From an uncultured Cryomorphaceae bacterium (lineage in GTDB: Bacteria > Bacteroidota > Bacteroidia > Flavobacteriales > Schleiferiaceae), in the NCBI GenBank assembly GCA_913031435.1, contig CAJWFD010000005.1:1-64000 (forward strand): a stretch of DNA of 64,000 nucleotides. Reading direction: 5' to 3'. Of this stretch, positions 18,638 through 37,145 are shown piece after piece; the first letter of the stretch is position 1, and the number at the start of each line of letters is the position of its first letter. The translations under genes were made by a program, and so were the position numbers. The notes below the pieces were generated by a model. That model had not been told where the DNA came from and did not search any database. It saw only the letters and a program-made list of their open reading frames with translations.

Positions 18638-19666
18638 TTAGATGAATTGCTGGAGATCTAAATTCAGCCACTCGAGGGCCGCTCCATGGAGCAACTTTCC
18701 TTTCCGCTCTTCACTCCAAGGCATACTGCCAATAAGCTTTCCAGGATCTAACTCACCCAGTGGAAACGGATAGTCTGTGCCTAGAGCTACTCTGTTCTCG
18801 CCCACCATTTCAACGATATGATCTAGCATTTTTTGATCATGAACGAGAGAGTCTAACCAAAATTGGCCTAAATACTTCTCTGGTGAAACAGGGTTATCTA
18901 TCGCTACAAGATCCGGACGTACATCAAAGCCATGCTTTATCCTTCCCAATGTTGCAGGAAAAGACCCACCACCATGGGCTATAGCAATGCGAAGTTTTGG
19001 TAGTCGTTCAAAGACGCCGCCAAATATTAACGAGCATATAGCCAGAGAGCTTTCCGCGGGCATACCAACCAACCAAGGCAACCAATATTTAGGCATTTTT
19101 TCCTTTGCCATCATGTCCCAAGGATGGACAAAAACAGCCATATCCAAATCTTGACAAGCCTCGAAAAACGGAAACAACTCCGGTGCATCTAAATTCCAAT
19201 CATTCACATGCGTACCTATCTCAATGCCTTTCAGTCCAATTTCCTTGCACCTTATTAGCTCTTGAATAGCTAACTCAGGACTCTGCATAGGTACCGTTCC
19301 TAAGCCAACAAAACGCTTAGGCTGCTTGACACAAATCTCAGCGATATGGTCGTTTAAAAACCTCGCGACCTCCAAAGTGTCTTTGGGCTTTGCCCAATAA
19401 CTAAACATTACAGGTACAGTTGAAAGTACCTGAACATCCACGCTATGCTGTTCACAATCTAACAAGCGCGCAGCGGGGTCCCAGCAATTTGCTCCTACCT
19501 CTCTAAAAAATGTTTCATCTTTCATCATTCTGGCGCATGACGGCATATGATGGTCCAGTGATATAAAGCCTCCATAACCAAACCTTTCTTGAAAATTCGG
19601 GATGTCCCTTGGGAGTATATGGGTATGAATATCTATCGTGAAATTTCTTGAAGTCAGCTCACACAT
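18638..19666 (-). CDS. nbaD: 2-amino-3-carboxymuconate-6-semialdehyde decarboxylase (ACMSD)
   Basis: A 342-residue amidohydrolase-fold metal enzyme. It has the zinc ligands of ACMSD in order: IDIHTHILP (His14, His16), VFVHPWDMM (His181), and GTDYPFPLGE (Asp298), plus HGGGSFP (His231). ACMSD decarboxylates 2-amino-3-carboxymuconate semialdehyde to 2-aminomuconate semialdehyde, steering the kynurenine pathway to complete degradation and away from quinolinate/NAD. It starts 2 bases after the upstream dioxygenase gene ends, so the two successive enzymes are coupled. The opposite arm of the cluster supplies the next steps. Confidence 0.93.
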   Translation of the reverse strand: MCELTSRNFTIDIHTHILPRDIPNFQERFGYGGFISLDHHMPSCARMMKDETFFREVGANCWDPAARLLDCEQHSVDVQVLSTVPVMFSYWAKPKDTLEVARFLNDHIAEICVKQPKRFVGLGTVPMQSPELAIQELIRCKEIGLKGIEIGTHVNDWNLDAPELFPFFEACQDLDMAVFVHPWDMMAKEKMPKYWLPWLVGMPAESSLAICSLIFGGVFERLPKLRIAIAHGGGSFPATLGRIKHGFDVRPDLVAIDNPVSPEKYLGQFWLDSLVHDQKMLDHIVEMVGENRVALGTDYPFPLGELDPGKLIGSMPWSEERKGKLLHGAALEWLNLDLQQFI

Positions 19667-19668
19667 AC

Positions 19669-20199
19669 TTAAATAAATCTTGAGTCAGCCTCCATGACTT
19701 GGTGACAACTATTACAAGTCCTGAGCTCCTGACTTGCATAATATTCTTTGAATTTTGGCAGGAATTCATTTTCAATATCCTTGAGTTCAAAAAACGTCTC
19801 GTGCAACTTTTCGTTGCATGATTCGCAGAACCACATCAAGCCGTCCGTAAAGCCACGTCCTTGTCGTACACGCTCAATGACCAAGCCCAAACTTCCTTCG
19901 TGACGTATTGGGCTGTGTGGGGTTTTTGCAGGTACGACCATCATATCACCTGGCCCAAGCTCTAACGTTTCCGCATTACCATCTACCTGAACCTTGACCG
20001 TGATATGTCCTTCGAGTTGATAGAAAAATTCCTCTGTCTCATTGTAGTGGTAATCCTTACGAGCATTTGGACCCGCAACCACCATCACGATGAAATCATC
20101 GCTGTCAGGTGTTAAGTTTTTATTAGCGACAGGAGGCTTGAGCAGATGTCTGTTCTCGTCCAGCCACTTTTGGAAATTAAAAGGCTTCAATAATGACAT
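19669..20199 (-). CDS. nbaC: 3-hydroxyanthranilate 3,4-dioxygenase
   Basis: A 176-residue cupin dioxygenase that opens the ring of 3-hydroxyanthranilate. It has the family start KPFNFQKWLDENRHLLKPP, the cupin motif PNARKDYHYNETEEFFYQLEG (iron ligands His and Glu), and PAKTPHSP with the second histidine. The C-terminal rubredoxin-like iron site found in the bacterial form is intact: CESC and CNSC. I use the ATG at 20199 (MSLLKPF); the frame can be extended to a TTG at 20223, but that adds residues absent in the family. It is first on the minus-strand arm of the cluster, divergent from the aldehyde dehydrogenase gene. Confidence 0.94.
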   Translation of the reverse strand: MSLLKPFNFQKWLDENRHLLKPPVANKNLTPDSDDFIVMVVAGPNARKDYHYNETEEFFYQLEGHITVKVQVDGNAETLELGPGDMMVVPAKTPHSPIRHEGSLGLVIERVRQGRGFTDGLMWFCESCNEKLHETFFELKDIENEFLPKFKEYYASQELRTCNSCHQVMEADSRFI

Positions 20200-20268
20200 G
20201 AGTGTTGAATTTAAAAACGACAAGTTAGGGAAATTAGAGGTTGATGTGCAGGCAGTGTTTGGCTTGTG

Positions 20269-20276
20269 TATCTTCG
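20269..20276 (+). promoter_or_regulatory. Probable -7 box of the aldehyde dehydrogenase arm
   Basis: TATCTTCG matches TAnnTTTG at all but one position. No TTG has good spacing. A start near 20281 would give a 14-base leader to the ATG at 20295, and would place the longer upstream TTG start (20241) outside the transcript. Confidence 0.35.
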
Positions 20277-20294
20277 TGGGAACAGATTGACCTT

Positions 20295-21734
20295 ATGAAG
20301 ATTCTCAACTATATAAACGGAGTATTGCAAGCTCCTGTCAACAACCAGTATTTAGACAATACTAACCCCGCTACTGGGGAAATCTACGGGAGCATCCCTC
20401 GAAGCGATGCTGAAGATGTGGAGGCCGCCGTTCAGGCAGCAAAAAAAGCCTTCCCCTCATGGAGCTCGCTCTCTGCAGGACAACGCTCAAATTGGCTTTT
20501 AAAAATAGCGCAGGCTATTGAGGATCGCATGGATGAGCTGGCTTTAGCAGAAAGTATAGATAATGGGAAACCACTTTCTCTGGCTAAAGCAGTTGATATT
20601 CCACGAGCACGTGACAATTTCAAGTTTTATGCAACTGCCATTTTACATGACGCCTATGAAACCCATGACATGGGTGTAGACGGATTCAACTACACGCTTC
20701 GTCAACCTATTGGTGTTGCAGGTTGTATTTCTCCGTGGAATCTACCGCTATACCTCTTTAGCTGGAAAATAGCTCCTGCCTTGGCCTCTGGAAATACGGT
20801 GGTCGCCAAACCATCTGAGGTCACACCTGCGACGGCTTATTTACTGAGCGAAATACTACACGATATAGATTTTCCAAAGGGCGTACTCAATATTGTCCAT
20901 GGACTCGGCGGAGAAGTTGGAGCTTCTATTGTAGAACACCAGCATATCCAAGTTATTTCCTTTACTGGAGGAACGGAAACAGGGAAAGCTATTTCCAAGA
21001 TAGCCGCACCGATGTTTAAAAAACTTAGCTTAGAATTAGGAGGAAAAAATGCAAATGTGATTTTCAACGATTGTGATTTTGAGGAGGCGATCAAAACTAG
21101 TGTAAGGTCCTCCTTCGCTAACCAAGGTCAGATTTGTCTTTGCGGTTCCAGAATTTATGTTCAACGTGGTATCTATGATCAATTTAAAGCTGCCTTCTTA
21201 TCTCGCGTTGCAGGGCTGACGGTTGCAGACCCTCTGTCGGAGTCCGCACGAATGGGCGCTATTGTGAGTAAGGATCATTTTAATAAGGTGCTCTCTTATA
21301 TTGAATTAGCTCGGGAAGAGGGAGGAACATTACTCGCTGGAGGGTATCCAGTTAAATTAGAGGGAAAGTGCGAAAACGGTTACTTTATTGCCCCCACCGT
21401 CTTTGAGAATTTACCTATTGGTTGCCGCACAAATCAAGAAGAGATTTTTGGACCAGTGGTAACCTTAACTCCTTTTGACACAGAAGATGAAGCACTCACG
21501 CTTGCAAATGGCACTGTTTATGGCCTTGCATCGACAGTGTGGACTACAAATCTACAGACAGCACATAGAATGGCTGCAGGACTGCACGCTGGTATTATTT
21601 GGGTGAACTGTTGGCTGTATCGCGATCTCAGAACGCCTTTTGGAGGTGTTAAGCAGAGTGGTGTAGGTCGTGAAGGAGGGTTTGAGGCTCTTCGATTCTT
21701 TACGGAACCTAAAAATGTATGTATCAAATTATAA
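20295..21734 (+). CDS. nbaE: 2-aminomuconate-6-semialdehyde dehydrogenase
   Basis: A 479-residue NAD-dependent aldehyde dehydrogenase. Family motifs are PWNLPLYLFSWKIAPALASGN, FTGGTETG, the general base in LELGGKNANV, and the nucleophile in NQGQICLCGSRIYV. Its sequence type (hydroxymuconic/aminomuconic semialdehyde dehydrogenases) and its position facing the 3-hydroxyanthranilate dioxygenase and ACMSD genes make 2-aminomuconate semialdehyde the likely substrate, giving 2-aminomuconate. I start at the ATG at 20295 (MKILNYINGVLQAP); a TTG-initiated frame extends 18 codons further but overlaps the probable promoter. The next gene begins 8 bases downstream. Confidence 0.9.
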   Translation: MKILNYINGVLQAPVNNQYLDNTNPATGEIYGSIPRSDAEDVEAAVQAAKKAFPSWSSLSAGQRSNWLLKIAQAIEDRMDELALAESIDNGKPLSLAKAVDIPRARDNFKFYATAILHDAYETHDMGVDGFNYTLRQPIGVAGCISPWNLPLYLFSWKIAPALASGNTVVAKPSEVTPATAYLLSEILHDIDFPKGVLNIVHGLGGEVGASIVEHQHIQVISFTGGTETGKAISKIAAPMFKKLSLELGGKNANVIFNDCDFEEAIKTSVRSSFANQGQICLCGSRIYVQRGIYDQFKAAFLSRVAGLTVADPLSESARMGAIVSKDHFNKVLSYIELAREEGGTLLAGGYPVKLEGKCENGYFIAPTVFENLPIGCRTNQEEIFGPVVTLTPFDTEDEALTLANGTVYGLASTVWTTNLQTAHRMAAGLHAGIIWVNCWLYRDLRTPFGGVKQSGVGREGGFEALRFFTEPKNVCIKL

Positions 21735-21742
21735 AATAGTCC

Positions 21743-22507
21743 ATGAGTACAATAACAGAAAAGGCAAATAGCCTGCACATCAGTGCGAGAACACAGAAGC
21801 CTAGAGGGCAATTTTCTAACTCCGAACAGTATACTCTCGCGGAAGCCTATGATGTGCAGCATGAACTTATTCAACGCCGTATTAAAGAAGGTTTTCCATT
21901 AATTGGCGTGAAAATGGGTTTCACTTCGAAGGCGAAAATGATACAGATGGGGGTTGATGATATGATCATTGGTCAATTAACAGCTGATATGACCATCCAT
22001 AAAGATGAAGCCTTCAAAAAAAAACTGTTCATTCATCCTCGAGCTGAACCAGAAATAGCCTTCAGACTATCTAAAGACATTAATGGACCGTTAACCGTAG
22101 ACCAGCTTCATAATTATATTGATGGAGTAGCAGCAGCAATTGAAGTGATTGATTCACGATACGATAATTTTAAATTCTCGTTAGAAGATGTGGTCGCGGA
22201 TAATTGCAGTTCATCAGCGTATGCCGTAGGAGATTGGTGCGAAGTTCCACTGGGGTTAAACGGCTTAGACATGACCATGACTTTTGATGGAGCAATCACC
22301 GCTCAGGGTAACAGTGATGCTATTTTAGACAATCCGTTTGAAGCTTTATCCGCAGCTACCAGACTTGCCTCAGAATATGGTATTCCATTAAAGACTGGAA
22401 TGGTAGTTCTCGCCGGAGCGTCTACAGCAGCACATTTCATCAAAGACTCTTCTAGCGTTACTCTTGATGTAGATGGATTAGGCGTGGTGTCTTTTAATGT
22501 CGTCTAA
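21743..22507 (+). CDS. 4-oxalocrotonate decarboxylase / 2-keto-4-pentenoate hydratase family enzyme
   Basis: A 254-residue member of the fumarylacetoacetate-hydrolase superfamily. The motifs IGVKMGFTSKAKMIQMGV and HPRAEPEIAF, followed by VAAAIEVIDSRY, are those of DmpH/DmpE-type enzymes; the KMGFTSKAKM stretch favours the decarboxylase (4-oxalocrotonate to 2-oxopent-4-enoate) over the hydratase. In the 2-aminomuconate route it follows the deaminase, which is not encoded here. Co-transcribed with the aldehyde dehydrogenase (8-base gap). Decarboxylase versus hydratase cannot be settled from sequence alone. Confidence 0.85.
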   Translation: MSTITEKANSLHISARTQKPRGQFSNSEQYTLAEAYDVQHELIQRRIKEGFPLIGVKMGFTSKAKMIQMGVDDMIIGQLTADMTIHKDEAFKKKLFIHPRAEPEIAFRLSKDINGPLTVDQLHNYIDGVAAAIEVIDSRYDNFKFSLEDVVADNCSSSAYAVGDWCEVPLGLNGLDMTMTFDGAITAQGNSDAILDNPFEALSAATRLASEYGIPLKTGMVVLAGASTAAHFIKDSSSVTLDVDGLGVVSFNVV

Positions 22508-22654: not shown

Positions 22655-23242
22655 CTACAATTCAACCCCTAAACTGACGAGTATCTGCGATCGCTCATAG
22701 CTCAGTGGGATGTCGTTCCAGGTACCAAGGTGGTCAGTGAAACTACCATAGTAGGTGACATCTAAACTGATCTTCCATAAATCAATACCCAGAGAAGCGT
22801 TATAGCCCGCTGTCGGCGTAGCAAAAGTATTGCTAAATGCATTATTGCTTATGGAGCCTTGGTAATGTACTCCCACTTCTGCTCTAGCAAATTTCAACAG
22901 GCGTATCCCTAAACCCGCATCCAACTGCAAGAACTTATGGTCAAATCGCTCGAAAAAAAAGTCATTGTTGCCGTCGTTTCCTTCTAAAAAATGTGTGTTT
23001 TCCGCATAAAAAAGAGAACCCGACGTATACAACTGATCACCTAAATATTGTCTTCCAAAAACACCTATATGATATCCATTGTCCAAAGTCTCTCCTTCAA
23101 AAATCTCTTGGGTTGAAGATGACGCGGCATCTAACCCTATGGCATTGAGATCATAATTCAATCCCGTACGAACTCCCCACCTACTCTGTCCTGTGACTGA
23201 AAGTGTTAGCCCAAAAGCCAGCAATATTATTATGTTTTTCAT
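22655..23242 (-). CDS. Outer-membrane beta-barrel protein, hypothetical
   Basis: A 195-residue protein with a signal peptide (MKNIIILLAFGLTLSVTGQ). The rest is alternating polar/aromatic strands ending in a strand and carboxyl-terminal residue pattern usual for outer-membrane barrels (SQILVSLGVEL). Examples of strands are WGVRTGLNYDLNAIG, YHIGVFGRQYL and RAEVGVHYQG. It resembles the small porin-like/OmpW-like barrels common in Bacteroidota but has no specific family I can name. It starts 25 bases after the sensor-like gene on the same strand, so the two are probably one unit. Confidence 0.7.
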   Translation of the reverse strand: MKNIIILLAFGLTLSVTGQSRWGVRTGLNYDLNAIGLDAASSSTQEIFEGETLDNGYHIGVFGRQYLGDQLYTSGSLFYAENTHFLEGNDGNNDFFFERFDHKFLQLDAGLGIRLLKFARAEVGVHYQGSISNNAFSNTFATPTAGYNASLGIDLWKISLDVTYYGSFTDHLGTWNDIPLSYERSQILVSLGVEL

Positions 23243-23267
23243 AGAGCTCTATTGTTTTCTCTTTAGC

Positions 23268-24602
23268 CTAAGGCAGTAATTGTGCCAATTGATCTTGAAG
23301 CTGAGAATTAATCACATAGACCACCTGACGCTTATCTGTTGGGGACTTTTCACGTAGAACTAGCTCTGAATTTAAAAGTTTTACTCCTAATTCGTTTAAT
23401 TCTTTTATAAATATGCTGCGCTGACGGCGCTGAACCTCCCAGCTTTTTTCCTGAACATTTAAAATACTGTTTAAGTCCTCCGCAAGTAAGGGACCGCTCA
23501 AGAGCTGACGTAACGTGTTCATTTGCGTTAAACTAAAGTTTTTATGGATTGTCTTAATCTTTCTAGATTTTAAATAAAAAACACTCCTTGATTTTAATAT
23601 TAAAAAAAGAATTAGCAATACTGAAAATAATAAAAACGCAAACTGCAAATATTTCTCAGCTGAGGAAAAGAATAGCGGTACTTGACCTTTACTCTGCATT
23701 TTAGTTACGAGGTACTCAAAACTATATCCTACCGAAATAACATCACTAATTTTCGGTATTAGAAGCGTATGCTTATCTAAGGTGTACATGCAATTAAAGC
23801 CACTCAAAGGTCCTGTTAAGTTGTATATCAATCCATTATCAATACCCCTATCAATGATCCTATTTCCATAAAAGTCAATTTCCCATGCCCCGATATTACT
23901 CATTACCAAAAGCGTAGTGTCCGTCATTCGATGATACACGTGTTCAACTCCTTTAAGGCCTGAGCTGAGGGTCCCTTTTTTTGACCAGGTATAGGTTATA
24001 AAGTCAAAAGCATACAACACATTATTGGCCTCTGCGTAAAACACATCTCGGCCTTTATCGTAAAAGCGCAAGCGGTTTTGTTCGTATTTGTCGGGCTTAA
24101 TAATAGGAAACGGTGCGTTGGACATATAGTTCCACTCCCTTCTGGCCTCCGAAAAATAAGTCAATAAATTATTTTCAATCCAAAAACCATAACCTCCAAA
24201 CGAGAAAATAGTATCCTTCCTCTGAAACTGGTAGGCATAAAAGTTATATCCTTGATAAAAGGTCCGATCTTGACGATCAATCGTGTTATTGAATGTGTCA
24301 ATCTCAAACACTCGGCCAGATCCGGAGAAAGTAGCCAACCATAATCCATCTCTTACAAACAGCTTCCCCAGTTCCCCTTTAAACAAATTACTATTCTCGC
24401 ATTTAACGATGAAACTCTGCAATGTATCAATGTGATTTTCGAAATATGCTAGGTGTTCCCCCGTAATCATAGATAAGACATGAATACTACTATCAGTAGG
24501 TGAACTCCATGAGACGGTTCCCTTCACTTCTTTACCGTTTACAGGGCTTAAGCACCATAATAACAGGAATCCTACAATACGTGATTTATGTTTTTTTAAC
24601 AT
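23268..24602 (-). CDS. Membrane-anchored sensor-like protein with cytoplasmic C-terminal domain
   Basis: A 444-residue protein in three parts. A signal peptide (MLKKHKSRIVGFLLLWCLSP) leads a large extracytoplasmic region (about 25-315), rich in W, Y and G, whose repeated short strands suggest a beta-propeller/kelch-like fold. One transmembrane helix follows (about 319-337, FAFLLFSVLLILFLIL). The cytoplasmic tail (338-444) is helical and basic: SLTQMNTLRQLL, then SWEVQRRQRSIFIKEL and SPTDKRQVVYVIN. The tail resembles a winged-helix-type region, so this may be a one-component transmembrane regulator that reads an external signal, but I do not recognise an exact family. It lies between the di-heme peroxidase genes and the barrel-protein gene. 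Confidence 0.65.
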   Translation of the reverse strand: MLKKHKSRIVGFLLLWCLSPVNGKEVKGTVSWSSPTDSSIHVLSMITGEHLAYFENHIDTLQSFIVKCENSNLFKGELGKLFVRDGLWLATFSGSGRVFEIDTFNNTIDRQDRTFYQGYNFYAYQFQRKDTIFSFGGYGFWIENNLLTYFSEARREWNYMSNAPFPIIKPDKYEQNRLRFYDKGRDVFYAEANNVLYAFDFITYTWSKKGTLSSGLKGVEHVYHRMTDTTLLVMSNIGAWEIDFYGNRIIDRGIDNGLIYNLTGPLSGFNCMYTLDKHTLLIPKISDVISVGYSFEYLVTKMQSKGQVPLFFSSAEKYLQFAFLLFSVLLILFLILKSRSVFYLKSRKIKTIHKNFSLTQMNTLRQLLSGPLLAEDLNSILNVQEKSWEVQRRQRSIFIKELNELGVKLLNSELVLREKSPTDKRQVVYVINSQLQDQLAQLLP

Positions 24603-24739: not shown

Positions 24740-25705
24740 TTAAAGTGCCTCAATGAAACTCTGAAGTTCTAAGAGCTGAGATTTTGAAAGCCCAAGTGGC
24801 TGAATGAGTAGAGACTGATAATCATGTAGGCTTCCACCGGCGTTGTATTGAAGCAGCACATCCTCAAGTGTTGCGACAGAACCGTCATGCATGAAGGGTG
24901 CTGTAAGTGCTGCATTGCGCAATGATGGTACTTTGAAGGTATAAAAGTCCGAAGAATCTAGTGTAAGCTGACCGCGACCATAATCGCCGTCTAAGATGGA
25001 AGTACCATTATTATGAAAAGAATAATCTGTAAACAGCGGACCAGAGTGACATTTAGAGCAGTTGGCCACTCCATAAAATAGTTCCATACCTCTTTTCGCG
25101 GATGGTGTTATGGCATTATTATCTCCAGAAATGTAGGCATCTATATCAGCATCTCTAGAAATTAACGTACGCTCGTATTGAGCGATAGAACGTGTTATAG
25201 TGTAAGCGGTTGCAGAATCATTAAACGCTTGTAGGAACAACTTTTTGTACGTTGAGTCGTCGTTCAACCGATCCGCCAGTAGCACCATATTAAACGCCAT
25301 TTCATTGTGTTCTTGAATAGGTACTAAAATTTGCATTTCTAATGTGGGCACTCCTCCTTCCCTCATGAAATAGGGTTGATAACCTATGTTCAGTAAGGAT
25401 GGGGAATTACGAATTCCGAGTCGTCCTTCTACTCCTGGAGAAACAGCAAGGTCGTCTGCTAAAGCAAATTGAGGTTTATGACAAGAAGCACAACTGATTG
25501 AGGAGTCTACACTGAGTATAGGGTCTTCAAACAATTTCCTGCCAAGATTGATTTTGGATATCTCAGGTTGGTTGTCTTGAGGATAGGACATCTGTGGCCA
25601 ATTTGACAATGTTCCAGGTACTTCAGGTTCGTTTTTTTCGCAAGAAAACATCAGGATGATAAGTCCTACAGTAGCGAGTTTAGAAAGGTGAGCTGAAGCG
25701 TTCAT
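24740..25705 (-). CDS. Di-heme cytochrome c peroxidase / MauG-family lipoprotein (second copy)
   Basis: A 321-residue lipoprotein (signal KLATVGLIILMFSC, cysteine at residue 22). It has two c-type heme sites, CASCH (72-76) and CSKCH (216-220), spaced as in the bacterial cytochrome c peroxidase/MauG family. It keeps APFMHDGSVATLEDVL near the C-terminus, the segment around the high-potential heme. Members either reduce hydrogen peroxide or form a bis-Fe(IV) state that oxidises a protein partner. Its start codon lies 26 bases inside the end of the preceding di-heme gene, so the two are co-translated. The partner is probably the MbnP-like product two genes upstream. Confidence 0.88.
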   Translation of the reverse strand: MNASAHLSKLATVGLIILMFSCEKNEPEVPGTLSNWPQMSYPQDNQPEISKINLGRKLFEDPILSVDSSISCASCHKPQFALADDLAVSPGVEGRLGIRNSPSLLNIGYQPYFMREGGVPTLEMQILVPIQEHNEMAFNMVLLADRLNDDSTYKKLFLQAFNDSATAYTITRSIAQYERTLISRDADIDAYISGDNNAITPSAKRGMELFYGVANCSKCHSGPLFTDYSFHNNGTSILDGDYGRGQLTLDSSDFYTFKVPSLRNAALTAPFMHDGSVATLEDVLLQYNAGGSLHDYQSLLIQPLGLSKSQLLELQSFIEAL

Positions 25706-26747
25706 CTTGAATGAGTTCTTGATCCGTCAATGTATGCAAAAAGGAGACCAAGTCACTTATATCCTGATCATTCAGCATCAAACCTGTTCCCATCGTCATT
25801 TGTAACGCCTGATCTAGCGTTGGGCTAGATTGTAATCCCGTATTGTAGTGTTGCACCACCTCTTCGAGCGTTTGGAAAATTCCATCATGCATATAAGGAG
25901 GTGTTAATGCAATATTTCTAAGGGTGGTCGTTTTCATTAATCCTATATCAGCGGAGTCGGCGGTTACGATAAACCGTCCCAAATCCGAGTTTAATGAATC
26001 CGTACCGTTATTCATGTAGGTGGGTGAATCAAACGTCTTGCCGCCGTGACAGTGTCCACAATCTGCGCCACTAGCATCTGGAAAGAAGGGGTTGTATTCT
26101 CCAAAAAACAACTCCCGACCCCGGTCCTCATTTTCTGTAAGCAAGGCGGATCCATTAAGGTATTGGTCGTACTTGCTCCTATACGAGACTATGCTGTTCA
26201 TAAACTGTTCTAAGGCCAGCGATACGAGATAAGAGCTTGGTTCTGCTGTTCCAAAAGCACGTAAAAACTGATGCGTATACAAAGTGTCTTGCCCGAGTTT
26301 TTCTATTACATTTTCCAGTGTCTCATCCATTTCTATGGCATCTTGGATGGGCAGTAAGCTTTGATCTCTCAATTTCTCAGCACGTCCATCCCAAAAATAT
26401 CCATTAGTATTCCAAAGCATGTTAACCGCGCTCATGGCTTGTCGATGACCCATGTCACCATGAATTCCTGTGCTGAATTTTGACGTGTCCGAAAATGCAT
26501 TTATCTGCTTATGGCAAGAGGAGCATGACATTGAATTATCTCCGCTAAGTCGATTCTCATAAAACAGCATCCTTCCCAGCTGTACGCCTTGATTTGTCAG
26601 CTTGTTATCCAAAGGGATTTCTGGAGTAGAAAGTGCTCCATATTCGAGTGAATAAGAAGTTTGGTCAATGACCGGGTTTGGTGGTGTTTTGGTACAACTC
26701 CACATCATTAATAATACAGCAATGGTTATACCCGCTAGACGTATCAT
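25680..26747 (-). CDS. Di-heme cytochrome c peroxidase / MauG (MbnH-like) lipoprotein
   Basis: A 355-residue lipoprotein (signal ITIAVLLMMWSC, cysteine 18) with heme sites CSSCH (75-79) and CGHCH (230-234). The family segment PPYMHDGIFQTLEEVV is at about residues 283-298. It overlaps the MbnP-like gene by 4 bases (ATGA). In methanotrophs and many other bacteria an mbnP gene is followed directly by mbnH, a di-heme MauG-family enzyme that oxidises a tryptophan of MbnP to kynurenine and thereby makes a copper site. The gene order here fits that pair. Whether this copy or the second one is the true MbnH equivalent cannot be told from sequence. Confidence 0.88.
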   Translation of the reverse strand: MIRLAGITIAVLLMMWSCTKTPPNPVIDQTSYSLEYGALSTPEIPLDNKLTNQGVQLGRMLFYENRLSGDNSMSCSSCHKQINAFSDTSKFSTGIHGDMGHRQAMSAVNMLWNTNGYFWDGRAEKLRDQSLLPIQDAIEMDETLENVIEKLGQDTLYTHQFLRAFGTAEPSSYLVSLALEQFMNSIVSYRSKYDQYLNGSALLTENEDRGRELFFGEYNPFFPDASGADCGHCHGGKTFDSPTYMNNGTDSLNSDLGRFIVTADSADIGLMKTTTLRNIALTPPYMHDGIFQTLEEVVQHYNTGLQSSPTLDQALQMTMGTGLMLNDQDISDLVSFLHTLTDQELIQDERFSSPF

Positions 26748-27700
26748 CTAATAATAACTCGTTCCGTGCTAACGCTTTTACCCTGTCTTAATATCACAAT
26801 GTATACACCTGTTTTATTTATAACGAAGCGTTCTTTCGTTTGTTCAGCGGTGCGGTGTTCAATCTTTTGACCTAATACATTTATCACCTCTATCTGAGAA
26901 CCAAGTGGTACTGTAAGCCAGAAGCTTCCATTCGCAGGGTTGGGATATATTACAAAGTCTAAATGCTCTAATTCCTTATCACTTAACGCCGCATTTCCCT
27001 CTGAAGAGGAGAAGACGTGATTATTCATGTTAACTAACGATTGACGCGCAGAGCCGCTTTCTCCATGAGAAATAACTCCCTGACCAACCGCTATTCCTTG
27101 GGTAAGCGCATCGTAGTTTGCTACTAGTTTAATCTCTAACGTATCTGTACCCACAGCAACTCCTGAAGTTGATATGGTTTGCATAGCGTAGTTTACATCA
27201 CCTAGACCATGCAATTCAAAGCCTTGATTTAAGGATGATGAACCCATACCTTCTGCCGCGATAAATCTATATCCAGCTGACCAACCCCAGTGCATGGAAG
27301 GAGATTTGGGCGCTAAAGGACTCTGAGATGAATAGATGGATGGATCCAAGTGGTTTAAGCTCGTACCTACTCCTATGGCAAATCTTACAGCCGTAACGCT
27401 GTCTAAACTCTGACTACCTAAATAAAGGTTTGTTGTTGCAGCGTCTAGCGCATCAATCAACACTACTTCAGGGTAATTAAATACGGAGTCATTGTCATAG
27501 ATAACTTGAATATCCCCCATGTAGTATTCTAGACGTGAAAAATTGAATTGGTTGCCTAAGTTATTTACCCCTATTGATGAACTAGTTAAGGGTGCAGAAG
27601 CCATCGTGTGATCAATAGTCAATACCAACTCTTTTGTAGACTGCGAAAAGAGAGTGACACTAAATATAAAAGCGAAAAAGATGAGTATTATTTTTCTCAT
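26744..27700 (-). CDS. MbnP-like protein with T9SS type A sorting domain
   Basis: A 318-residue secreted protein: signal peptide (1-19), an MbnP-family domain (about 22-205), and a C-terminal T9SS sorting domain (about 245-318, starting DFVIYPNPANGSFWL and ending with KTGVYIVILRQG). The MbnP hallmark is PSMHWGWSAGYRF with Trp138 and Trp140; earlier family segments are NNLGNQFNFSRLEYYMGDI and VTAVRFAIGVG. MbnP proteins bind copper, and in studied cases a conserved tryptophan is converted to kynurenine by MbnH. The T9SS tail implies that this version is exported across the outer membrane and displayed or released. It is first in an operon with two di-heme enzymes. Confidence 0.85.
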   Translation of the reverse strand: MRKIILIFFAFIFSVTLFSQSTKELVLTIDHTMASAPLTSSSIGVNNLGNQFNFSRLEYYMGDIQVIYDNDSVFNYPEVVLIDALDAATTNLYLGSQSLDSVTAVRFAIGVGTSLNHLDPSIYSSQSPLAPKSPSMHWGWSAGYRFIAAEGMGSSSLNQGFELHGLGDVNYAMQTISTSGVAVGTDTLEIKLVANYDALTQGIAVGQGVISHGESGSARQSLVNMNNHVFSSSEGNAALSDKELEHLDFVIYPNPANGSFWLTVPLGSQIEVINVLGQKIEHRTAEQTKERFVINKTGVYIVILRQGKSVSTERVIIR

Positions 27701-33692: not shown

Positions 33693-36600
33693 TTATGCGA
33701 AAAGTCGTGCCATGAACCGCTGTATACTCTCAAAAAGGAAGTACATCACGGGGACAATAACAAGGGTGAGGAATGTTGCAAAGGTCAATCCAAAGATGAC
33801 TGTCCACGACATTGGACCCCAGAACACCACGTTATCTCCACCAAAGAAGATATGTGGATTGTTTTCGCTAAATAAGGTGTAGAAGTTGATGTTCATCCCC
33901 GTAGCTAATGGAATCAATCCCAATATGGTCGTGATGGCGGTTAACAATACGGGGCGCAAACGAGTACGTCCAGCTTCTACAATAGTATCGATCAAGATCG
34001 GTACAGGTAATTTATCCTTTTCATCCAGACCTAATTCGGCAAGCTTACGCGAGGAAAGCTGTTTGATGAAGTCAATCAATACAATGGCGTTATTTACCAC
34101 AATACCCGCCAGCGATATAATACCGATCATCGTCATCATAATCACGAACTCCATTCGGAAAATAACTAACCCCAAGAAGACTCCGATCAAGGAGAACACC
34201 ACGGTTACAAGGATGATAAAGGGAGTAGAAGCTGAGTTGAATTGGCTTACTAAAATCAAGAAGATCAAGAATACCGCCATTAGTAGTGCGCCAGAAAGGA
34301 AATCAAGTTCTTTAGCTTGCTCCTCTTGCTCACCGGTAAAGTCCACGCTGATGTCCTGTGGAAGGTCGTAACCGGCCATCGCTACTTTTATAGCGTCCAC
34401 TGTTTCTGTTGGATTAGCTCCTTCCAATAGATTGGATTGAATAGAAATCACGCGTTTTAAATCCTTGCGTTTCACGGAGGAGAACGTAGATGTTTTTTTA
34501 GCCTTAGCTACTGCCGAGATCGGGACTTGCTTGATTTTTCCACTGGCCTGGTCACGGAAGGTGATTTTCTGATTCATCAAGTCCTCGACATTGTAACGAT
34601 ATTGGTCACTCATCCGAATATTAATGGGATAATCATCTTCACCGTTTTTAAAACGCGAAACTTCCTTACCGAACAAAGCGGTACGCATCGCATCCCCGAT
34701 TTGTGCAGAGCTTAAGCCTAAGGCCCTTGCTTTGACACGGTCTACCGTGATCGGCATTTCAGGTTTTCCGGTTTCTACATCTAGTTTCAATTCCTCAATT
34801 CCTGCAATACTTTGGTTGTTAATGAAGGCTTTGATACCATCCGCAACCTCAACCAATTGGTAGTAATCATTACCGCTGACCTCAATATTTACTGGGGGGC
34901 CTGTTGGGGGTCCATTGCTGTCTTTTGCTACTGAAATAACCACGCCAGGGTAATCGCTGAGGGTCGCGCGAATCTTTTTCAATACATCAGAAGAATTCAC
35001 ACGGTTACCCTCCGTATCTACTCGATCTGAGAACTTATAAAAAGCCACTGTGATTTTTGCTTTGTTCGGTGTCTGTGCCATAGATGGCCCCGCGTTAGGA
35101 TCACTCGTTCCTTCACCAACCTGAGCAATAACCGATTCTACCATGTAGTTCTGCTGCACACCGTTGACATCGACATAGTTGTATTCACTTACAATCTCCA
35201 TGACCTCTTTTTCAAGCTCCAGGGTTACTTCGTTGGTTTGCGCTATGTCGGTACCAATTGGCATCTGGATATAGACCATCGCCTGGTTCGGCATGTTTTC
35301 TGGAAAGAACAGTGTCTTTGGAGGAAAAGCTCCGAGAAGTATCCCTGAGAAAATAAGTAGGGCAAATGTCCCCGCAAAAAACAGGATGGGCTTTTTGCCT
35401 GATAAAGCATAGGCTAAAACAGATTTATAACTGTTCTCTAGAGATGGAAGCAAAATGGTCTGAAACCACTTGGTTGAAGGAACCACGAAATAGGTATAAA
35501 TCAGTGCGAAAGAACCGGAGTAAATAAACAGATTACCCCAAGCCATTTTACCAGCACCATAGGCAATCACTACACCTAAAACTATAGCTAAAATGCTGTA
35601 GATAGCTACCCTTTTTTTATTTAAGGGAGCCTCTTCTACTTTCATAAGTGCCGCTGTTAATCCTGGATTAATCACCAGTGCCACGAACAAAGAAGACGAC
35701 AGAACGGTAATTAACGTCAACGGTAAGTACTTCATGAATTCCCCGAAGAGACCCGGCCAGAAAGCTAAGGGCAGGAATGCCGCTAAGGTGGTTGCTGTAG
35801 AGGCTATAATTGGCATAGCCACTTCGCCCGCACCCAACTTCGCCGCAGTAATACGGTCGTAGCCTTCATCCATGAATCGGTAGATATTCTCTACCACAAC
35901 AATTCCGTTATCTACTAACATGCCTAAAGCCAAAACCAAGGCAAAAAGAACAATCGTATTTAAAGTTACTCCCAAGGCATTGAGAATTACAAAACTCATG
36001 AGCATAGACATTGGAATAGCAATCCCAACAAAAAGTGCATTGCGCAATCCCAAGAAAAACATCAAGACAATAACCACGAGAAGCATTCCAAAAATAATCG
36101 AGTTTTCAAGATCCGCTACTTGTGTTTTCGTTTGCTCAGAAGTATCGTTCGTTACAGATATGTTGAGGTTGTCTGGGAAATAGCTTTCCTGCGCCTCTGC
36201 TAATATTTGAGCAATCTTTTCAGAAACAATAATCTGATTTTCACCCGAACGCTTAAATACGTCTAACATCACTACAGAAGAACCGTACTGGCGAGCATAG
36301 GATTGACGCTCTACCTCATCAAATTCAATCTCTGCCACGTCGCCTAAACGAACGAGCATCATCTTTTCACTCTTTATAATCACATTGCGCAGTTCATCTA
36401 AATCACGAATTTCTCCGACCACGCGGACGTTGCGTCGGTAACCGTCTACAAGAAGGTTTCCCCCGGAAATGGTCATGTTTTCATTCTGAATAGCCCCTGC
36501 GATATCGTTAAACCCAAGCTGCATACTCTCCAACTTTTTGTTGTCAACAAGGATTCGCAACTCTTTATCGTCAATACCGCGGATGTCTACTTTTGAGATT

Positions 36601-37145
36601 TCTGTAAGACCCTCTATTTTCTCTTCTAAAAACTCACCATATTCCTTCAGCTGGTCCAGAGAAAACTCTCCTGACATGTTGATATTTGCTATGGGCATCA
36701 ATTCTGAGAAGTTCAATTCAAACACGTTTGGGTCCGCCGGCAAATCTGTGGGAAAATCTGGCTGGCCCATTGCGGCGTCTACCTTGTCTTTTACTTTTCT
36801 CAAAGCTTCGTCAGGAGAGACATCAAAGTTGAACTTAACCTGAATGGTAGAGTATCCTTCTACCGAAGTAGAATTGATCGCATCTACCCCTGAAATACCA
36901 TTAATTTCTTTCTCTAAAGGGCGGGTAATGAGTTTCTCTAAATCCACCGGTGAGTTTCCGGGATAAGGAGTACCCACATAGATTTCAGGAGTAACAATTT
37001 CAGGAAATGCCTCAGAGGGCATTGAATTATAACTCATGAAGCCTGCAATAAATACAATGGCCGTGAGCACGTATACCGTCATGGTGTTCTTCACCGAGAA
37101 GGTAGAAGGACCAAACTGTTTGATTATACTTTTCTTTTCTTCCAT
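33693..37145 (-). CDS. RND efflux transporter inner-membrane subunit (HAE1/AcrB-like)
   Basis: A 1150-residue proton-driven efflux pump, a little longer than AcrB. It has the N-terminal TM1 region (TVYVLTAIVFIAGFMSY), the porter domain, and the central TM bundle with ALGMLVDNGIVVVENIYR, which carries the proton-relay aspartate. A second porter half and a C-terminal TM bundle (IGIISLAGIVVNNAIVLIDFI) follow. An extra hydrophobic insert (about 510-560) accounts for part of the added length. It is the last gene of a TetR-TolC-adaptor-pump operon; substrates cannot be read from sequence, but drugs, bile-like or lipophilic compounds are usual. Confidence 0.95.
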   Translation of the reverse strand: MEEKKSIIKQFGPSTFSVKNTMTVYVLTAIVFIAGFMSYNSMPSEAFPEIVTPEIYVGTPYPGNSPVDLEKLITRPLEKEINGISGVDAINSTSVEGYSTIQVKFNFDVSPDEALRKVKDKVDAAMGQPDFPTDLPADPNVFELNFSELMPIANINMSGEFSLDQLKEYGEFLEEKIEGLTEISKVDIRGIDDKELRILVDNKKLESMQLGFNDIAGAIQNENMTISGGNLLVDGYRRNVRVVGEIRDLDELRNVIIKSEKMMLVRLGDVAEIEFDEVERQSYARQYGSSVVMLDVFKRSGENQIIVSEKIAQILAEAQESYFPDNLNISVTNDTSEQTKTQVADLENSIIFGMLLVVIVLMFFLGLRNALFVGIAIPMSMLMSFVILNALGVTLNTIVLFALVLALGMLVDNGIVVVENIYRFMDEGYDRITAAKLGAGEVAMPIIASTATTLAAFLPLAFWPGLFGEFMKYLPLTLITVLSSSLFVALVINPGLTAALMKVEEAPLNKKRVAIYSILAIVLGVVIAYGAGKMAWGNLFIYSGSFALIYTYFVVPSTKWFQTILLPSLENSYKSVLAYALSGKKPILFFAGTFALLIFSGILLGAFPPKTLFFPENMPNQAMVYIQMPIGTDIAQTNEVTLELEKEVMEIVSEYNYVDVNGVQQNYMVESVIAQVGEGTSDPNAGPSMAQTPNKAKITVAFYKFSDRVDTEGNRVNSSDVLKKIRATLSDYPGVVISVAKDSNGPPTGPPVNIEVSGNDYYQLVEVADGIKAFINNQSIAGIEELKLDVETGKPEMPITVDRVKARALGLSSAQIGDAMRTALFGKEVSRFKNGEDDYPINIRMSDQYRYNVEDLMNQKITFRDQASGKIKQVPISAVAKAKKTSTFSSVKRKDLKRVISIQSNLLEGANPTETVDAIKVAMAGYDLPQDISVDFTGEQEEQAKELDFLSGALLMAVFLIFLILVSQFNSASTPFIILVTVVFSLIGVFLGLVIFRMEFVIMMTMIGIISLAGIVVNNAIVLIDFIKQLSSRKLAELGLDEKDKLPVPILIDTIVEAGRTRLRPVLLTAITTILGLIPLATGMNINFYTLFSENNPHIFFGGDNVVFWGPMSWTVIFGLTFATFLTLVIVPVMYFLFESIQRFMARLFA

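Follow-up and report, generated by a model that had tools for sequence, protein, structure and literature searches.

The pairing of MbnP with the di-heme enzyme MbnH is widespread (PMC3621798). In the system of Methylosinus trichosporium OB3b (structures 7l6g and 6e1c; families TIGR04052 and TIGR04039, GenProp0940), the gene for MbnP comes first and that for the di-heme protein second. Kynurenine-containing copper proteins that sit at the cell surface and are paired with a di-heme protein also have precedent in CorA/CorB of Methylomicrobium album and MopE/SACCP of Methylococcus capsulatus, where the copper protein is co-transcribed with a di-heme cytochrome c peroxidase (CcP)-like protein (PMC3912023). 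These two systems differ from the MbnP family in having another fold and a ligand set of two His and kynurenine, and they have a single di-heme partner and no T9SS export. MauG shares with the enzymes described below the di-heme fold, a Tyr on the distal side of the E heme and the oxidation of a Trp in a partner protein, but its product is tryptophan tryptophylquinone in methylamine dehydrogenase. A Trp situated between the hemes is important in MauG. The MbnP of methanotrophs, according to the abstract of a 2021 PNAS paper, reportedly holds Cu(I) with one His and one Met as ligands and has the first WxW Trp converted to kynurenine; we take this to be the ligand set of 7l6g.

We analyzed a stretch of 64,000 nucleotides, here called the window, from an uncultured Cryomorphaceae bacterium. 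Three open reading frames on its minus strand (Table 1) encode an MbnP-family protein with an HWGW motif (W138, W140), fused to a T9SS type A sorting domain, and two di-heme lipoproteins, D1 and D2. This much had been read from the sequence in an earlier note on this DNA, and profile searches bear it out for all three proteins. The MbnP gene overlaps that of D1 by 4 bases and D1 overlaps D2 by 26 bases, which suggests that the trio is translationally coupled. The host genome (1.83 Mb, about 91% complete, in 66 contigs) has three MbnP loci and five genes of the PF03150 family. It also encodes the T9SS translocon protein SprA (2541 bits) and about 36 matches to the T9SS tail family, making surface export of the tailed MbnP plausible.

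Table 1. Genes of the MbnP/di-heme trio, with positions in the window
Feature	Coordinates	Strand	Details
MbnP-family protein	26744..27700	-	318 aa; signal peptide, MbnP core 23-205, linker, T9SS type A sorting domain 251-318
Di-heme lipoprotein D1 (alpha class)	25680..26747	-	355 aa; CXXCH 75-79, 230-234; inter-heme Trp119; E-heme distal Tyr301
Di-heme lipoprotein D2 (beta class)	24740..25705	-	321 aa; CXXCH 72-76, 216-220; Arg115 at inter-heme Trp position; distal Tyr287

The core of the MbnP-like protein matches PF20243 (MbnP) at 93.5 bits against a Pfam gathering cut-off of 27, and its C-terminal tail matches both PF18962 (33.7, cut-off 27) and TIGR04183 (41.1, cut-off 23). With a sorting domain above cut-off and a T9SS translocon in the same genome, the protein qualifies as T9SS type A cargo. 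The score to the MbnP_like_WxW equivalog TIGR04052, 46.5 bits, is below the NCBIfam cut-off of 140. Across 47 aligned MbnPs from Bacteroidota, methanotrophs and other bacteria, Met136, Trp138, Trp140 and Gly143 show no variation, and Asn116 and His164 are almost as constant. The MbnP signature, made up of WxW, a Met at the second position ahead of its first Trp and a downstream His, is thus present as M136, W138, W140 and H164, and Met136, Trp138 (the first Trp of WxW) and His164 are candidate copper/kynurenine residues. The tailed MbnP-like protein has none of the several Cys that canonical MbnPs keep without exception. Two His are specific to the tailed subfamily (n=31), H137 in 87% and H212 in 100% of members, and His117 of the tailed group is also seen in canonical MbnPs.

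An AlphaFold2 model of the MbnP-like protein (pLDDT 93.9) returned all six chains of MbnP 7l6g as its first-ranked PDB matches (E 4e-7, prob 1.00), and the tail of the model matches 8glk, the sorting domain of NucA. Given a modest TM-score to 7l6g of 0.41-0.44, the kinship is a distant one. A profile built from tailed homologs only did not reach 7l6g by sequence; the profile that does match it (A1) contains canonical MbnPs and is partly circular, and we therefore rely on the fold match and PF20243 instead. The conserved M-x-W-x-W plus His and the MbnP-like fold uphold the identification as MbnP. Lipoprotein MbnPs of Bacteroidota, for example those at C19:14812 in the host genome itself and at L001, likewise have an MxWxW core followed by a di-heme gene. 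They differ in being mostly lipobox-like (83/103, compared with 4/31 in the tailed group), in lacking a T9SS tail and in having one partner.

Other MbnP loci show further arrangements. The second MbnP of the host genome (G000:C19, L174:3905-7056), lipoprotein-like and tailless, has a di-heme partner, and directly after the two comes a T9SS-tailed YHYH protein (PF14240). Another genome has these three kinds of gene together as well (L198:10865-14475), making the YHYH protein a candidate third component of MbnP/MbnH systems. Two tandem MbnP-like lipoproteins without an adjoining di-heme gene are found at L175:5911-7358 (G000:C11), and this pair recurs in relatives (L122, L125, L133, L135, L173).

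Both D1 and D2 match PF03150 (CCP_MauG) far above its cut-off of 25.6, at 165.9 and 163.8 bits, and each has two CXXCH motifs and a lipobox-type Cys. Because PF03150 covers CcPs too, the pair might be ordinary periplasmic CcPs that detoxify H2O2, with the MbnP-like protein an unmodified surface protein, a reading that we consider very improbable. The position distal to the E heme, occupied by Met in the CcP reference 1zzh, is Tyr in D1 and D2 and in almost all MbnP partners that we examined. Both proteins thus combine two CXXCH motifs with a Tyr in place of the E-heme Met, as MbnH- and MauG-like enzymes do, and lack the distal Met that marks CcpA; the label 'CcpA-type' formerly attached to them does not fit. 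The nearest curated models are those of MbnH and MauG, all below equivalog cut-offs: D1 scores 229 bits to TIGR04039 (MbnH; cut-off 363), and D2 scores 204.8 bits to TIGR03791 and 204.7 bits to TIGR04039, each below the respective cut-off.

In a di-heme tree of 119 rows, whose reference rows derive from printed alignments with C-termini partly missing, D1 falls within a clade of 19 (alpha; SH-aLRT 99), D2 within a clade of 20 (beta; SH-aLRT 97), and the CcP references form a clade of their own (SH-aLRT 99). MbnH 6e1c is the best PDB match of D1 and, as chain 6e1c_A, of an AlphaFold2 model of D2. It also ranks first for profiles of both classes, with 243 bits for alpha (next 195) and 258 bits for beta (next 185). 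MbnH is therefore the best solved relative of alpha and beta by 48 and 73 bits, MauG scores below it for both classes, and the proposal of two MbnH-like partners stands, since each is closer to MbnH than to any solved CcP. The strict linkage of the di-hemes to a WxW-bearing MbnP also speaks against ordinary peroxidases. A firm grouping of both di-hemes with CcpA, which the earlier note had named among the outcomes that would count against it, is absent from the best tree, but AU tests leave kinship with CcpA unrejected for alpha (p 0.38) and beta (p 0.086), so that the case against CcpA rests on the axial residue and the profile scores.

Are the two di-hemes copies of one enzyme? Constraining alpha and beta to a single clade is rejected (p-AU 4e-6), and with it a recent tandem duplication of MbnH. 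By sequence phylogeny D1 and D2 are two separate, non-sister di-heme classes. They also differ at the inter-heme Trp position of MauG, CcP and MbnH, where D1 keeps the Trp and D2 has Arg, as placed by alignment rather than by a holo structure. Arg115 of D2 lies 39 residues beyond the heme His, as expected for the inter-heme position, and Arg occupies this position in 18 of 20 betas, D2 included. Judged from the alignment, then, Arg in place of the inter-heme Trp is a variant of the beta class; the position is variable in other MbnP partners too. The trio thus departs from canonical MbnP/MbnH in its T9SS tail, its lack of the invariant Cys residues, its scores below both NCBIfam cut-offs and its two non-sister partners, one with Arg at the inter-heme Trp position, while sharing the gene order of MbnP before its di-heme partner, the core fold, M-x-W-x-W plus His, and a partner nearest MbnH with distal Tyr. 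MbnPs of Zoogloea (L064-L077, L101) show the same order of one MbnP and two di-heme genes, but there the two MbnH-like di-hemes are sisters in the tree, a lineage-specific duplication unlike alpha/beta; doubling therefore arose independently. In Zoogloea and relatives the open reading frames with the MbnP core have an upstream extension and, at 540-738 aa, are of unusual length.

PF20243 occurs in 78 of the 119 genomes of the order and in 78 of 296 genomes sampled phylum-wide. Among the loci that we fetched, 15 other genomes from six family-level groups have a tailed [H/Y/D]WGW MbnP accompanied by both partners; as the choice of loci favored long open frames and the window's own family, this number is a lower bound and gives no frequency. 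The order MbnP-alpha-beta occurs at ten loci (L110, L114, L120, L123, L141, L171, L179, L180, L181, L182) and MbnP-beta-alpha at five (L196, L197, L198, L199, L202), with a split arrangement, MbnP-alpha-MbnP-beta, in L203. With at least 16 Bacteroidota genomes carrying it, the trio is a conserved cassette, and an assembly artifact, a one-off oddity or chance is rejected by its presence in the 15 others. Among the papers searched, we found none describing the T9SS-tailed form of MbnP or the alpha/beta pair, though the neighborhood survey of the 2021 PNAS paper on MbnP may include such loci. The trio is apparently an undescribed variant of the known MbnP/MbnH system, and its recurrence in at least 15 other Bacteroidota genomes makes it a conserved one. 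The core idea of the earlier note is therefore sound, with two corrections: the arrangement is not uncommon, and two non-sister classes, the beta one without the inter-heme Trp, are not a doubled MbnH.

The two classes are not equally constant. Several loci with a tailed MbnP have a beta or beta-like partner alone, and the complete genomes G171, G333 and G209, which have beta, yielded no alpha. The only loci with alpha alone (L103, L113) belong to genomes that have beta elsewhere (G007 and G042). Beta is the constant partner and alpha an add-on. This pattern, along with the distinctness of the classes and the retention of the inter-heme Trp in alpha against Arg in beta, would fit a division of labor in which D2 modifies the MbnP core while D1 leaves MbnP untouched and instead scavenges peroxide or transfers electrons, so as to protect or feed beta. 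We regard this as possible though unlikely: alpha has the distal Tyr of MauG and MbnH, and its clade sits among MbnP-adjacent Bacteroidota di-hemes, so that alpha may itself be a modifier.

The reading that we prefer, and consider probable on present sequence evidence, is that the trio forms a single operon, coupled in translation, for a peptidyl-kynurenine copper protein displayed on the cell surface. It starts from a Sec signal, an M-x-W-x-W plus His core and a T9SS tail in the MbnP-like protein, the linkage and classes of its partners, and the presence of T9SS in the genome. The protein would first be exported through Sec, and its MbnP core would fold in the periplasm. There D2, the beta enzyme, held by its lipid anchor, would oxidize Trp138 to kynurenine either by itself or with the aid of the alpha enzyme D1, with a high-valent di-heme state generated by H2O2 or by O2 and electrons. 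We assign the core role to beta, since it is also seen where alpha is missing, and alpha may be an accessory oxidase or an electron or peroxide partner. The modified site, with Met136 and His164 as ligands and Kyn138 in the second sphere, would then bind Cu(I), and T9SS would carry the folded protein across the outer membrane to be displayed or released. Its role may be the capture or buffering of copper at the cell surface. The copper-handling neighborhoods of some relatives and the precedent of CorA/CorB and MopE/SACCP favor this reading. Speaking against it are the NCBIfam scores below equivalog level, the tailed-only profile that misses 7l6g, the lack of a copper gene beside the cassette in the window and the Arg that beta has for the inter-heme Trp.

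Some other oxidative modification in the HWGW motif could be made instead, for instance a hydroxylation of Trp or a crosslink joining Trp to Trp or to His, possibly to serve a site for a metal other than copper in which the subfamily-specific His take part. The extra conserved His (H137 and H212), the presence of two enzymes, which could mean two modifications, and the crosslink made by the fold relative MauG would all suit such chemistry. We nevertheless judge it quite improbable, as Met136, Trp138 and His164 are identical to those of the single-partner MbnPs, in which the modification is known to yield kynurenine. A bolder form of the kynurenine model is also rather unlikely, in which the T9SS-displayed MbnPs specific to Bacteroidota need two structurally different di-heme oxidases, one MbnH-like with a Trp relay and one with Arg in its place, and carry a doubly modified or differently ligated copper site involving His137/His212. 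Held with the same doubt is its corollary, protein oxidation by a di-heme mechanism that dispenses with the inter-heme Trp.

No copper gene adjoins the cassette in the window. In relatives the cassette can lie within copper-handling neighborhoods: L113 adjoins a copper-translocating P-type ATPase (615 bits, cut-off 397), an HYC_CC_PP protein and a CusA/CzcA pump (764 bits, cut-off 701), and L171 adjoins two HYC_CC_PP genes and, truncated where the locus ends, a CusA-like pump. Genes for HYC_CC_PP also lie immediately upstream in L103 and L110, with genes of the same cluster in L120 and L123, and a divergent TonB-dependent receptor is present in L036/L179, L180 and others. The pump gene at 33693-37145 of the window was rejected as a copper efflux pump: it scores as a multidrug-type RND (best model NF033617, 521 bits) and reaches only 317 of the 701 bits required by the CusA/CzcA model. 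The similarity that BLAST shows to the CusA of L113 reflects general RND homology.

Other genes lie closer by. Two genes downstream on the same strand (22655-24602) encode an outer-membrane-like protein of 195 aa and one of 444 aa that seems to contain a membrane segment, neither with a Pfam or NCBIfam match. At 18638-22507, 2 kb from the cassette, is a run of genes for the breakdown of free tryptophan/kynurenine (3-hydroxyanthranilate 3,4-dioxygenase, an amidohydrolase, a semialdehyde dehydrogenase and an oxalocrotonate-type decarboxylase/hydratase). We found no evidence linking these genes to peptidyl kynurenine, and their proximity is probably a coincidence.

If the preferred reading is true, many Bacteroidota that are not methanotrophs would carry peptidyl-kynurenine copper sites on surface cargo of T9SS, giving them a route of surface copper capture that does not need methanobactin. 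Since beta lacks the inter-heme Trp and is still the constant partner, the alpha/beta pair offers a natural test of whether MauG-type protein oxidation requires that residue.
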